Below, piece after piece: positions 58,634-62,379 of a stretch of DNA of 64,000 nt; position 1 is the stretch's first letter; each line of letters opens with the position of its first letter. The stretch is from contig NZ_FNCI01000012.1 in the NCBI RefSeq assembly GCF_900100755.1, forward strand, positions 1-64,000. Reading direction: 5' to 3'. Both the position numbers and the translations under genes were made by a program. The notes beneath the pieces were generated by a model. That model searched no databases. It saw nothing but the letters and a program-made list of their open reading frames with translations, and had not been told where the DNA came from. Source of the stretch: Onishia taeanensis. GTDB lineage: Bacteria > Pseudomonadota > Gammaproteobacteria > Pseudomonadales > Halomonadaceae.

Positions 58634-58710
58634 AGGACCGTAGCTCAGTTGGTTAGAGCGCCACGTTGACATCGTGGAGGTCAGCGGTTCAAATCCGCTC
58701 GGTCCTACCA
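58634..58710 (+). tRNA. tRNA-Val (anticodon GAC), copy 1
   Basis: The sequence folds as a tRNA: acceptor AGGACCG/CGGTCCT, D arm AGCTCAGTTGGTTAGAGC, anticodon arm CCACG-TTGACAT-CGTGG giving GAC, T arm GCGGTTCAAATCCGC and an encoded CCA. Confidence 0.95.
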
Positions 58711-58734
58711 AGCATCTTTGCCACGGCCAACAGC

Positions 58735-58811
58735 AGGACCGTAGCTCAGTTGGTTAGAGCGCCACGTTGACATCGTGGAGGTCAGCGGTTCAAATCCGCT
58801 CGGTCCTACCA
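58735..58811 (+). tRNA. tRNA-Val (anticodon GAC), copy 2
   Basis: Identical in sequence to the first copy over all 77 bases, 24 bases downstream. Both are probably made from one transcript. Confidence 0.95.
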
Positions 58812-59508: not shown

Positions 59509-60330
59509 TTACTGCCAGCCGGGAACCGCAGCACCCTTGAACAGCTCGTCGGCCTTGGCGATCACGGCGTCGCTCTGGTAGGCGTCGACCAGCTGCTTGA
59601 TGGCTTCGCGGTCTTCATCGCCGCTACGCACCACGATCAGGTTGACGTAGGGGGACTCGGGGCCTTCCTTGATCAGGGCGTCGTCCAGGCTCAGGCCGGC
59701 CGGCTGGGCGAAGGTATTGTTGATGAAGGCCATATCGACGTCGGGCAGCACGCGCGGCAGTTGAGCCGCTTCGATCTCGCGGAACTCGAAGTCGTTCGGG
59801 TTATCGATGATGTCGATCGGCGTGGCTTCCAGGTTCTGCGGGTCCTCGAGCTCGATCAGGCCCTGGTTGTGCATCAGGATCAGTGAGCGGCCTTCGTTGG
59901 ACGGGTCGTTGGGCAGGGCGATGACGGCACCTTCCGGCAGGTCGTCGATGCTCTCGAACTTCTCGGAGTAGGCACCGATCGGGTAAACGAAGGTGCGTCC
60001 GGCAATCGCGAAGTCATAGCCGCGGTCGTTGACCATGCTCTGCATGTACGGCTCGTGCTGGAAGGCATTGGCATCCAGGCTGCCATCGGCCAGAGCGGCG
60101 TTGGGCGAGACATAGTCGGTGAACTCGATGATCTCGGCATCCAGGTCGTACTTCTCCTTGGCAATGCCCAGGGCCACCTGCATGACCTCGGTCTCGGGGC
60201 CAGCAACGGTGCCGATCTTGAGCGTCTGGTCTTCCTCACTGCTGCAGCCGGCCAGCAAGCCGGTACCGACGAGTGCTGCGGCCGCCAGCAGGCGGGTGGG
60301 GCGAAGCAGGTTTGCCAGGGTATTGGTCAT
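59509..60330 (-). CDS. metQ: Methionine ABC transporter substrate-binding lipoprotein
   Basis: MetQ captures methionine in the periplasm for MetNI. The 273-residue product has a lipobox LLAGC (Cys28) and the NlpA-type pattern: VSPNAALADGSLDANAFQHEPYM, RTFVYPIGAYS and GAVIALPNDPSNEGRSL. GGGAGAG lies before ATG 60330. It follows metI by 130 bases. Confidence 0.94.
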   Translation of the reverse strand: MTNTLANLLRPTRLLAAAALVGTGLLAGCSSEEDQTLKIGTVAGPETEVMQVALGIAKEKYDLDAEIIEFTDYVSPNAALADGSLDANAFQHEPYMQSMVNDRGYDFAIAGRTFVYPIGAYSEKFESIDDLPEGAVIALPNDPSNEGRSLILMHNQGLIELEDPQNLEATPIDIIDNPNDFEFREIEAAQLPRVLPDVDMAFINNTFAQPAGLSLDDALIKEGPESPYVNLIVVRSGDEDREAIKQLVDAYQSDAVIAKADELFKGAAVPGWQ

Positions 60331-60460
60331 CGTGATGCTCTCCCTTGGGGCTAATAAGCCGCGAATGATCTCCCGCCGGGTGGGCGAGGTGTTAATGGCA
60401 AACCGGACGGTTGGCGTCCGGCGCCGTTTGGCGTCCTGCCATCCGGGCAGGGCGCGATCG

Positions 60461-61114
60461 TTACTTGTGGTCGGCCTTGCGCACCAGGTGGTCGCCAAGG
60501 CTCTGAAAGCCCTGCACCATGACCACTAGAATGGCAACCGTGATCAGCATGACGACCGGGTCGAAACGGTTGTAGCCGTAGCGTATGCCCAGGTCACCCA
60601 GCCCGCCACCGCCGACGGCGCCGGCCATGGCCGAGTAGCTGATCAGCGTCACCACGGTGATGGTCATGCCATTGATGATGCCGCCCCTGGCTTCGGGGAG
60701 CAGCACCTTGGTAATGATTTGATAGGGCGTGGCGCCCATCGATTGGGCGGCCTCGACCAGCCCTGGCGGCACTTCATTCAGCGCCCCTTCGACCAGGCGA
60801 GCGACGAACGGAATCGCGGCGATGGTCAGCGGCACGATGGCGGCGTTGGTACCGATCGAGCTGCCAGCGATCAGCCGCGTAAAAGGAATGATCGCCACCA
60901 TCAGGATGATGAAGGGAATCGAGCGGCCGACGTTGGTCACGATAGCCAGCACACTCTGTGTCACCGGGTTGGCGAGAATTTGCCCCGGCCGTGTGACGTA
61001 GAGCAGCACGCCCAGCGGGATCCCGGCAATGGCTGCGATCAGCCCGGCGATGCCGACCATGTACAGCGTTTCGAGAGTGGACTCGAGAATCAGTTCAAGC
61101 ATCGCGTTGGACAT
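60461..61114 (-). CDS. metI: Methionine ABC transporter permease
   Basis: MetI forms the membrane channel. The 217-residue product has five hydrophobic segments and a conserved EAA loop (GLVEAAQSMGATPYQIITKVLLPEA). ATG 61114 has GGAGG nine bases upstream; its start overlaps the metN end by 20 bases. Another ATG at 61102 is possible. Confidence 0.95.
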   Translation of the reverse strand: MSNAMLELILESTLETLYMVGIAGLIAAIAGIPLGVLLYVTRPGQILANPVTQSVLAIVTNVGRSIPFIILMVAIIPFTRLIAGSSIGTNAAIVPLTIAAIPFVARLVEGALNEVPPGLVEAAQSMGATPYQIITKVLLPEARGGIINGMTITVVTLISYSAMAGAVGGGGLGDLGIRYGYNRFDPVVMLITVAILVVMVQGFQSLGDHLVRKADHK

Positions 61115-62138
61115 GGCCAAGCACCTCCACTTTAAGGTCGTGGGCTTCCAAGTAGTTGAGCGCCGCGCGGGTGTCGTGTGAGTTGCCGATCAGCTCGGCG
61201 ATCATCAGTCCCAGTGTGCGGTCCTGAATCGACTCGACCTTGGCCTGCAGGATGCTGACATCGACCCCGCACTCGCGGGCCAGACGTGATACCAGTGGTG
61301 TGGCCACGGCGTCGCCGCCGAAGGCCAGGCGTACCACCGGGTGAGTGTTGACGCTGGGCTCTGCCTCGAGTCGCTCGACCAATGCGCCCGGCGGCTCAAG
61401 CTCCAGGAAGTCATTGAGGAACTCGCGACCCAGCTGGGTCTGTGGTGCGGTGAAGAAGTCGCCAACGTCGGCCTCTTCTACCAGCTCGCCGTCGGAAATC
61501 AGGCCGACCCGGTCGCAGATGGTCTTGACCACTTCCATCTCGTGGGTAATCAGCAGAATGGTCAGGCCCAGCTGTTGGTTGATTTCCTTGAGAAGCTCGA
61601 GGATGGAACCGGTAGTTTGCGGGTCCAGTGCCGAGGTGGCCTCGTCGCACAGCAATACCTTGGGCCGGCTGGAAAGTGCCCGGGCGATGGCCACGCGCTG
61701 CTTCTGGCCGCCGGAGAGCTCGGCTGGGAACTTGTCGGCTTTATCGGCAAGCCCGGTTAGGTCGAGCAGTGGCAGCACGCGTTCCTGGATGGCGCTCTTG
61801 CTCATGCCAGCCAGCTCCAGCGGCAAGGCGACGTTGTCATAGACGCTGCGTGAAGAAAGCAGGTTGAAGTGCTGGAAGATCATGCCGATCTGGTGGCGGG
61901 CCTGATTGAGGCTTGGGCCACTCAGCCGCGTGAGCTCCTCGCCGTCGACCTGGACGCTGCCGGTGGTGGGGCGTTCAAGCAGGTTGACGCAGCGAATCAG
62001 CGTCGACTTGCCGGCACCGGACAGGCCGATGACGCCGTGGATGCTGCCTTTGGGGACATGCAGGTCGACGTGCTTCAAGGCCTGAATGGCATGAGCGCCG
62101 CTGCCGTATGTCTTGGAGACGTTTTCGAGTCTGATCAT
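61095..62138 (-). CDS. metN: Methionine ABC transporter ATP-binding protein
   Basis: MetN drives methionine import. The 347-residue product has Walker A GLSGAGKST, the ABC signature LSGGQKQRV, Walker B VLLCDEATSALDP, and a C-terminal NIL domain (about 265-340) that senses methionine and inhibits transport. It is the first gene of metNIQ, under a SAM-II riboswitch. The start at 62138 lacks a good ribosome site. Confidence 0.95.
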   Translation of the reverse strand: MIRLENVSKTYGSGAHAIQALKHVDLHVPKGSIHGVIGLSGAGKSTLIRCVNLLERPTTGSVQVDGEELTRLSGPSLNQARHQIGMIFQHFNLLSSRSVYDNVALPLELAGMSKSAIQERVLPLLDLTGLADKADKFPAELSGGQKQRVAIARALSSRPKVLLCDEATSALDPQTTGSILELLKEINQQLGLTILLITHEMEVVKTICDRVGLISDGELVEEADVGDFFTAPQTQLGREFLNDFLELEPPGALVERLEAEPSVNTHPVVRLAFGGDAVATPLVSRLARECGVDVSILQAKVESIQDRTLGLMIAELIGNSHDTRAALNYLEAHDLKVEVLGHVQRDA

Positions 62139-62209: not shown

Positions 62210-62237
62210 AAAAAAAAGGCCACCCTGACGGGTGGCC
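62210..62237 (-). terminator. Attenuator terminator of the metN leader
   Basis: On the minus strand GGCCACCC (62237-62230) pairs with GGGTGGCC (62225-62218) around a four-base loop, followed by eight T (62217-62210). It lies 12 bases after the riboswitch and 72 bases before the metN start codon. Confidence 0.9.
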
Positions 62238-62249
62238 ATCAACGCTGGA

Positions 62250-62334
62250 CACACCCTTTTAGCTGCACTTCCCGCTCGGCTCGACGAATCGAGCCAGACG
62301 AGGGCGCCCGCAAGCCGGGTACAAATCGGCGCCT
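62250..62334 (-). ncRNA. SAM-II riboswitch with an extra hairpin
   Basis: Read on the minus strand, this shows the SAM-II consensus in order: P1 strand GGCGCC (62333-62328), GATTTG-TACCC, CTTGC, the second P1 strand GGCGCC and later GCTAAAAGGG (62263-62254). These match the known aptamer segments GAUUU-xACC, UUGC and GCUAAAAAGGG. Pseudoknot pairing ACCC with GGGT is present. Between P1 and the GCTAAA segment an extra hairpin stands: GGCTCGA (62295-62289 strand), loop TTCG, TCGAGCC (62284-62278). The typical aptamer is about 50 bases; this one is about 85. Position directly upstream of metN supports the call. Confidence 0.9.
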
Positions 62335-62350
62335 AAAAAAAGTGGTGTGA

Positions 62351-62379
62351 ATCTTAGGGTGCCCACCGTGGGGTGTCAA
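62351..62379 (-). promoter_or_regulatory. Sigma-70 promoter of metNIQ
   Basis: The minus strand has TTGACA (62379-62374), a 17-base spacer and TAAGAT (62356-62351), so transcription should start around 62344, about ten bases before the riboswitch P1. Confidence 0.8.

Follow-up and report, generated by a model that had tools for sequence, protein, structure and literature searches.

The metNIQ genes of Onishia taeanensis (Halomonadaceae) are preceded by what we conclude, from comparison with related leaders, to be a SAM-II-type aptamer whose insertion hides it from Rfam. The element most probably (we estimate about 0.8) serves as a SAM-responsive OFF switch that acts by transcription attenuation ahead of these genes. 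We regard it as a variant of a known riboswitch class, with a structure that is solid on comparative grounds. The aptamer core, the insertion as a helix, the terminator, the promoter-like site and the gene context are established at the level of sequence; that SAM is the ligand, the direction of the switch and the role of the inserted helix are points that we infer. A sequence-only reading of the same DNA had proposed a SAM-II-type aptamer with an inserted hairpin and an attenuator ahead of metNIQ, and the comparative evidence supports that proposal.

Organization of the metN leader

The window, i.e. the whole stretch of DNA analysed, comprises 64,000 nt of contig NZ_FNCI01000012.1. The promoter, the SAM-II-type aptamer and the terminator that had been predicted ahead of metN were all recovered on the minus strand where they had been placed. 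Related leaders carrying the insertion are represented by 99 rows (inserted rows), corresponding to 96 places, as L138/L053, L140/L205 and L145/L214 each represent the same place twice; L047 was set aside as identical to L012. The features of the locus are as follows.

62351–62379, minus strand: sigma-70-like promoter, TTGACA-17 nt-TAAGAT, 10 of 12 consensus matches
62333–62253, minus strand: SAM-II-type pseudoknot aptamer, whole, recognized by its core elements and relatives
62328–62333, minus strand: P1 5' strand GGCGCC, pairing with the P1 3' strand
62322–62327, minus strand: GATTTG, conserved, SAM-II core
62317–62320, minus strand: predicted P2 pseudoknot 5' strand ACCC (within TACCC), facing GGGT
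62310–62314, minus strand: CTTGC of the SAM-II core (within GGCTTGC; ATTGC in many relatives)
62303–62308, minus strand: P1 3' strand GGCGCC
62271–62302, minus strand: the insertion, an irregular hairpin of 32 nt abutting P1 on one side and AAGTGCA on the other
62295–62278, minus strand: 7-bp UUCG hairpin, the tip of the inserted helix
62264–62270, minus strand: loop strand AAGTGCA, aligned to AAATGC(C/A) in the short SAM-II forms
62258–62263, minus strand: GCTAAA, conserved, SAM-II core, followed by a single A and then GGGT
62253–62256, minus strand: predicted P2 pseudoknot 3' strand GGGT
62256–62248, minus strand: proposed antiterminator strand GGGTG-T-GTC, beginning with the P2 GGGT
62238–62251, minus strand: linker TGTCCAGCGTTGAT, 14 nt, preceded by G at 62252, unchanged in 95 of the 99 inserted rows
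62210–62237, minus strand: intrinsic terminator GGCCACCC-GTCA-GGGTGGCC followed by T8, an 8-bp GC-rich hairpin
61095–62138, minus strand: metN, methionine ABC transporter ATPase, ATG at 62138
60461–61120, minus strand: metI permease, above the NCBIfam cut-off
59509–60330, minus strand: metQ lipoprotein, ATG at 60330, above the TIGR00363 cut-off

In the 601 bases scanned, one promoter and one terminator were found, compared to 0.2 and 0.3, respectively, in shuffled sequences. Inspection by eye revealed TTGACA-like boxes at a similar spacing to P1 in the relatives, and transcription would be expected to start near 62346–62344. MetN scored 481.6 bits with TIGR02314, slightly below the NCBIfam cut-off of 499.7; for metQ, the stretch scanned with the profile began further upstream, at 60420. 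Past the 3' end of metQ, on the opposite strand, are two tRNA genes (58634–58808 of the window, plus strand; 72.9 bits each) located 27 bases apart.

Relationship to SAM-II riboswitches

The sequence-only reading had looked to the Rfam SAM-II covariance model (RF00521) for confirmation, which it did not provide: the locus reached 17.5 bits, short of the gathering score of 36, and the match covered model positions 10–44 only, that is, P1 and the P1 loop, with the core in register. At the gathering level, Rfam detected three tRNAs and nothing else in the whole window; at a permissive level, the 17.5-bit SAM_alpha match appeared amid chance matches to sRNA terminators, two of which had higher bit scores. 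A search of the whole host genome with RF00521 yielded no match, which says little by itself because 14 of 14 control genomes were equally silent. Among the relatives given to Rfam, the cut-off was passed by none of 13 inserted leaders and by two of seven short copies. The failure thus tracks divergence and insertion and is no disproof of membership in the SAM-II class; the gathering score marks a limit of detection and is not itself a trait of the riboswitch. Across 398 genomes of the phylum, RF00521 matched in 83, with spans of about 74–83 bases, so that SAM-II aptamers detectable by Rfam are without a long insertion, but the search filters are themselves biased against insertions.

Two other Rfam families were considered. 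Identity with the SAM-II long loops family (RF01726) was rejected, since in a whole-genome search that model gave nothing at the locus at E≤10, its one match, below the cut-off, lying elsewhere in the host genome. The SAM-V model (RF01826) likewise failed to match the locus at E≤10.

The core itself is well preserved. The P1 stem encloses GATTTG...TTGC, and all six of its pairs form in 31 of 31 alignment rows; pair 2 changes from G-C to A-U in three of these, the remaining five being invariant. GCTAAA-(A/C)-GGG is found in 99 of 99 inserted rows, and the core is common to the long and short forms among the aligned relatives. The segments on which the earlier assignment had relied, GATTTG included, are kept. 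For the pseudoknot, covariation between ACCC and GGGU had also been suggested as a check. The CCC/GGG strands of P2 are complementary in every inserted row, but all three pairs are invariant and P2 is consequently without covariation support within the family; in the outgroup, other complementary letters are seen by eye (UCUU/AAGA in L153, CCUU/AAGG in L156).

Could the likeness to SAM-II be fortuitous and the leader an ordinary protein- or ribosome-mediated attenuator? The unmet Rfam cut-off at the locus would fit such a view, which we nevertheless consider extremely improbable: the same core can be aligned in short forms of the family and the order, and those short copies that pass the cut-off do so as SAM-II. 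Furthermore, the only frame open from the aptamer into metN is not maintained in the relatives. A leader peptide beginning at GTG 62252 and running into metN was accordingly rejected, the distances to metN in relatives falling in all three frames, as was a short frame from ATG 62239, which is absent in L123.

Structure of the inserted helix

The insertion had been described as a 7-bp UUCG hairpin. That hairpin is exact; however, it is merely the tip of the 32-nt irregular helix filling 62302–62271. The UUCG loop, which had been singled out as notable, is a detail of the genus, with A-UUCG-U occurring in three of 87 distinct inserts, all from Onishia; what is kept in the relatives is the inserted helix. 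The 87 distinct inserts (18–46 nt) all fold as one hairpin, and in 86 of them it is closed within 1 nt of both ends. Their mean folding z-score was -3.55 relative to mononucleotide shuffles, only two not being below -1. When counted from the insert ends, without alignment, basal pairs 1 to 4 form in 68, 86, 87 and 82 of the 87 inserts.

Covariation, proposed earlier as a check on the hairpin, was assessed after aligning 31 distinct leaders with MAFFT, and changes on both sides were found in five of the seven basal pairs of the insert stem. Over the whole structure, 94.4% of cells pair, compared to 36–50% when the partners are slid, and 51 cells show double changes, compared to 7–28. The covariation score of 0.165 was equalled in none of 500 shuffles. 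For two of the five measures the signal hardly stood out from column shuffles, namely for pairs changed on both sides (6 versus 4.3; 15 of 500 as high) and for further pair types (17 versus 17.2; 341 of 500). Loop and insert length vary freely across the relatives. Taken with the uniform folding and the covariation, this indicates, as far as sequence comparison goes, that selection keeps a helix at the insertion point and no particular sequence.

Distribution of the inserted and short forms

An exact pattern of the core elements with a long gap occurred in 32 of 275 Halomonadaceae genomes, and the reversed control pattern in none. All 32 loci have metN downstream on the same strand (in L042, the alignment covered no more than the first 29 residues of metN), 91–148 nt from the core, or 258 nt in one locus with an insertion. 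With the gap set to 12–42 nt, the pattern was found in 44 of the 275 genomes; these were partly the same long copies and partly short ones, the latter mostly away from metN. The presence of metN downstream was verified for the 32 pattern loci and for the rows of the MetN tree (see below).

A covariance model, R1, built from 23 inserted leaders, matched in 233 of the 275 family genomes, representing 20 of 24 genera, and these matches include short copies; for 96 genomes out of the 233, the insert itself was read. Given this reach and the absence of hits above the Rfam cut-off among the 13 inserted loci, the SAM-II class is probably wider than the databases say. The 60 stretches taken from relatives were picked among the best-scoring R1 rows, and diverged or insert-free leaders are therefore under-sampled. 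A strict long-form pattern applied to contigs of 84,980 species retrieved 27 stretches, from Halomonas, Billgrantia, Onishia, Modicisalibacter and one further Halomonadaceae bacterium.

In the order, R1 matched 37 of 293 genomes at E≤0.01, 29 outside the family. Eight outgroup loci were read (L151, L152, L154 and L155 were left out), and all eight contain the short form, with about 3–6 nt between P1 and the AAA/AAG strand. Three of them adjoin metN (L153, L156 and L157), one metA (L149) and one metK (L150), the latter two by Pfam, while L147 adjoins a frame that is metA-like by likeness; these six score 33–39 bits with R1. Two weak R1 matches outside the family span 69 and 71 bases (G464 and G697).

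Riboswitch variants with changed ligands are known, and an aptamer of SAM-II descent that now senses, for example, SAH or methionine might explain why helix and linker are so constant; a structural addition near the pocket in 96 family genomes could be read in the same way. Such a change is very unlikely, as the core retains GATTTG, TTGC and GCTAAA, metN is the gene controlled in 32 loci, and the outgroup copies are found on metA, metK and metN.

Origin of the insertion

A tree of 45 MetN proteins was rooted at the midpoint, rows of up to 300 residues (L042 and L144) having been dropped. The five family members with a short metN leader are set apart by a branch (95/85), the neighbouring group (95/88) consists of the 37 members with the insert, and the three short outgroup rows (L153, L156 and L157) fall outside both. 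Since ordinary short aptamers precede metN in these three outgroup and five family leaders, the inserted hairpin is probably derived. The simplest reading of the sequences is a single gain inside the family; one loss in the short group is a possible alternative.

Terminator and its possible alternative pairings

The automatic search recovered a terminator in 67 of the 68 inserted rows to which it was applied. In the first alignment, the hairpin and T-run are in place in 30 of 31 rows (one mismatched, L039; L016 interrupted). The script returned no terminator in the inserted leader L216 and in the short metN leaders L001 and L121. In L216, the aptamer and the inserted helix are kept and the linker and terminator are replaced, making it a candidate for loss of attenuation or for another expression platform. 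In L137 (positions 1613–1776; the same locus as L016), an insertion of about 164 bp interrupts the loop of the metN terminator. This insertion has the inverted ends TGGAGCC...GGCTCCA, resembles a small mobile element and, given its position, should disturb the attenuator.

These observations bear on the possibility that control by the SAM-II-type switch is mainly translational or mixed, with AAAAGGG as a ribosome or standby site and the terminator constitutive or secondary. There is a precedent in Sinorhizobium meliloti metA, where a Shine-Dalgarno sequence in the aptamer is described as serving a start codon 74 nt downstream (PMC9373788). In the present leader, about 115 nt separate AAAAGGG from the metN ATG downstream, the ribosome site of metN itself looks weak by eye, and in L216, L001 and L121 an aptamer stands ahead of metN where no terminator was found. 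We nonetheless judge this arrangement unlikely in view of the regularity with which hairpin and T-run accompany the inserted aptamers. In addition, relatives differ far less in the linker that joins aptamer and terminator than in the sequence preceding metN, and the frame from aptamer to metN is not kept, the distances falling in all three frames.

Attenuation, the reading that we favour, calls for a structure competing with the terminator. Pairing of GGGUG with CACCC had been suggested for this purpose; it is possible and extends to 8 bp rather than five, GGGUG-U-GUC being able to pair with all eight bases of the terminator 5' arm GGCCACCC. The predicted antiterminator hairpin is a variant of this pairing, in which GGGUG...CCA pairs with UGG-C-CACCC (-10.8 kcal/mol). 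It is weaker than the terminator (-17.6 kcal/mol) and would thus have to work kinetically. When the growing transcript was folded in steps of five with a pseudoknot-free model, the antiterminator was part of the minimum-energy structure of the 120-nt transcript and gave way to the terminator once 125 nt had been reached; the minimum-energy fold of the whole leader corresponds to neither the aptamer nor the antiterminator. A change of the linker GUC to GCC in L203 puts a C-G pair in the place of U-G within the 8-bp antiterminator. For the CCA/UGG version, a pair is lost in L203 and bases are lost in L123.

Pairing of the strand beginning with GCUAAA to its own terminator arm, over 7–10 bp, was found in most tandem copies (see below) and in the outgroup leaders L146, L147, L148 and L150, examples being GCUAAACAG/CUGUUUAGC in L150 and GCUAAAGCGG/CCGCUUUGGC in L148. 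The duplex found automatically is weak in L149 (-2.7) and in L153, L156 and L157 (about -7). When strands were swapped among 15 of 92 leaders (L149 left out), the mean energy was -11.5 kcal/mol with the own arm and -8.4 kcal/mol with other types. The result is not cleanly diagonal, the metN strand forming stronger duplexes with several foreign arms than with the arm of its own leader, and the antiterminator that we infer therefore rests on complementarity, the one improving change in L203 and analogy.

A proposed model for attenuation

In the proposed mechanism, RNA polymerase would start about 11–13 nt before P1, and P1 and the inserted hairpin would fold first. In the presence of SAM, the H-type pseudoknot would close, the ACCC of the P1 loop pairing with the GGGU that follows GCUAAA. 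With GGGU held in this way, GGCCACCC would be free, the terminator could form and metNIQ would not be transcribed. In the absence of SAM, GGGUG-U-GUC would pair with the whole GGCCACCC arm (or GGGUG...CCA with UGG-C-CACCC), the terminator would come too late to form, and methionine uptake would be on. The inserted helix, at the junction of P1 and the third loop, would give rise to a three-stemmed pseudoknot. Most likely, it replaces the linker of about 3–6 nt and stacks on or beside P1, fixing the junction.

The constancy of the linker is accounted for by this model only in part. The stretch from GGGTG to CACCC is identical in 91 of 99 inserted rows, although the MetN proteins behind inserted leaders are down to about 75% identical to that of the window (a partial match in L144 gives 68%). 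An antiterminator explains the two arms of this stretch, not the ten-base loop CAGCGUUGAU, which is intact in 95 of 99 rows. The GCGUU of the loop is complementary to the P1 5' strand NNCGC in 490 of 490 cells across 98 rows, G-U pairs allowed, and remains so where P1 reads GACGC and, in one leader, where the loop reads GCGUC; as both strands hardly vary, this is a hint and not proof. We tentatively raise two further roles for the linker, though it is doubtful that it has either. It might dock on the P1 strand, in which case the SAM-free antiterminator loop would bind P1, dismantle the aptamer and couple the two states at two points. Alternatively, it might act in trans as a small RNA, the terminated transcript then consisting of the aptamer, a conserved single-stranded seed and the terminator; the inserted helix would in that event be part of a dual-function switch.

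Comparison with known riboswitches

The preQ1-II and fluoride riboswitches differ from SAM-II in ligand and core, and the pocket of SAM-V is related to that of SAM-II. As three-stemmed pseudoknots (PMC11262651), the preQ1-II and fluoride aptamers share with the present element an extra hairpin inside the aptamer pseudoknot, which here is added to an existing class. SAM-V is described as an H-type pseudoknot SAM sensor (PMC6061858); its model was silent at our locus.

SAM-II as presented by Corbino et al. 2005 (RF00521, SAM_alpha; PMC1273637) has the same P1 and GATTTG/TTGC/GCTAAA core, a pseudoknot like the one predicted here, the same promoter a few nucleotides before P1, a terminator past the aptamer and methionine genes downstream. 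The metN leader differs from it in the helix that separates P1 from the third loop (32 nt here, 18–46 nt in relatives), in the ACCC/GGGU pseudoknot strands, in having metN as the target and in scoring below the Rfam cut-off. Optional sequence insertions are allowed in the consensus drawings of that paper, according to the legend of its Figure 1. The SAM-II long loops (RF01726; Weinberg et al. 2010, PMC2864571) are, by name and table entry, also enlarged-loop variants of SAM-II, from another lineage (Bacteroidetes and marine), and their model misses the locus. The S. meliloti metZ and metA leaders, too, combine a SAM-II aptamer with an intrinsic terminator, and terminated leader RNAs exist in the cell; these leaders are alphaproteobacterial and precede biosynthetic genes, and the accessible text does not mention an inserted helix (PMC9373788).

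The occurrence of SAM-II in a gammaproteobacterium, which had been regarded as notable, is already in print (PMC2258182; PMC1273637 for other proteobacterial lineages), as is the proposal that SAM-II with terminators acts as an OFF switch (PMC1273637, PMC2258182, PMC9373788). In a survey of about 200 proteobacterial genomes with Rfam profiles, as far as its accessible part shows, Rhizobiales and Rhodobacterales were the only groups reported to have SAM_alpha (PMC4239095). What is new is the inserted SAM-II form on metN in Halomonadaceae; the variant was not found in literature, mostly outside subscription journals and accessible in part, on SAM-II or SAM riboswitches in Halomonas or Halomonadaceae, on metN and on inserted hairpins. 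With it, metNIQ of this family gains a candidate regulator. The leaders also amount to a natural experiment, in which a compact pseudoknot aptamer acquired a helix, most simply once, and has retained it, free in sequence, across several genera. What is tolerated or needed at the third-loop junction of SAM-II thereby becomes testable, and the insertion point is a possible site for tagging the aptamer.

Additional SAM-II-like elements

Tandem pairs of SAM-II-like aptamers, 110–132 nt apart, were observed in 11 of 12 such loci examined (the short copies among L002–L030, plus L125, L135 and L136). The first aptamer of a pair reads GATTTG...GCTAAAGCG and mostly has its own terminator; the second carries GATTTAAGCACCAACTTGC...GCTAAAGCGGCG. 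In six of 22 tandem copies the script found no terminator, the T-runs being short or interrupted. Many of the short tandem copies lie ahead of other frames, and the two proteins tested were both without a Pfam family. Several genomes contain two such copies each, and the arrangement resembles a dispersed cassette headed by a SAM-sensing leader.

A different placement is seen in L126–L129 (genus g15), where a short SAM-II-like core, GATTTGACACAGCTTGCAGCCCTAC...GCTAAAGCGGAGCATCA(T/C)ATG, ends a few bases before the ATG, as might be expected, by analogy, of a translational switch. In L126, the frame downstream of this core encodes a CobW-type GTPase.
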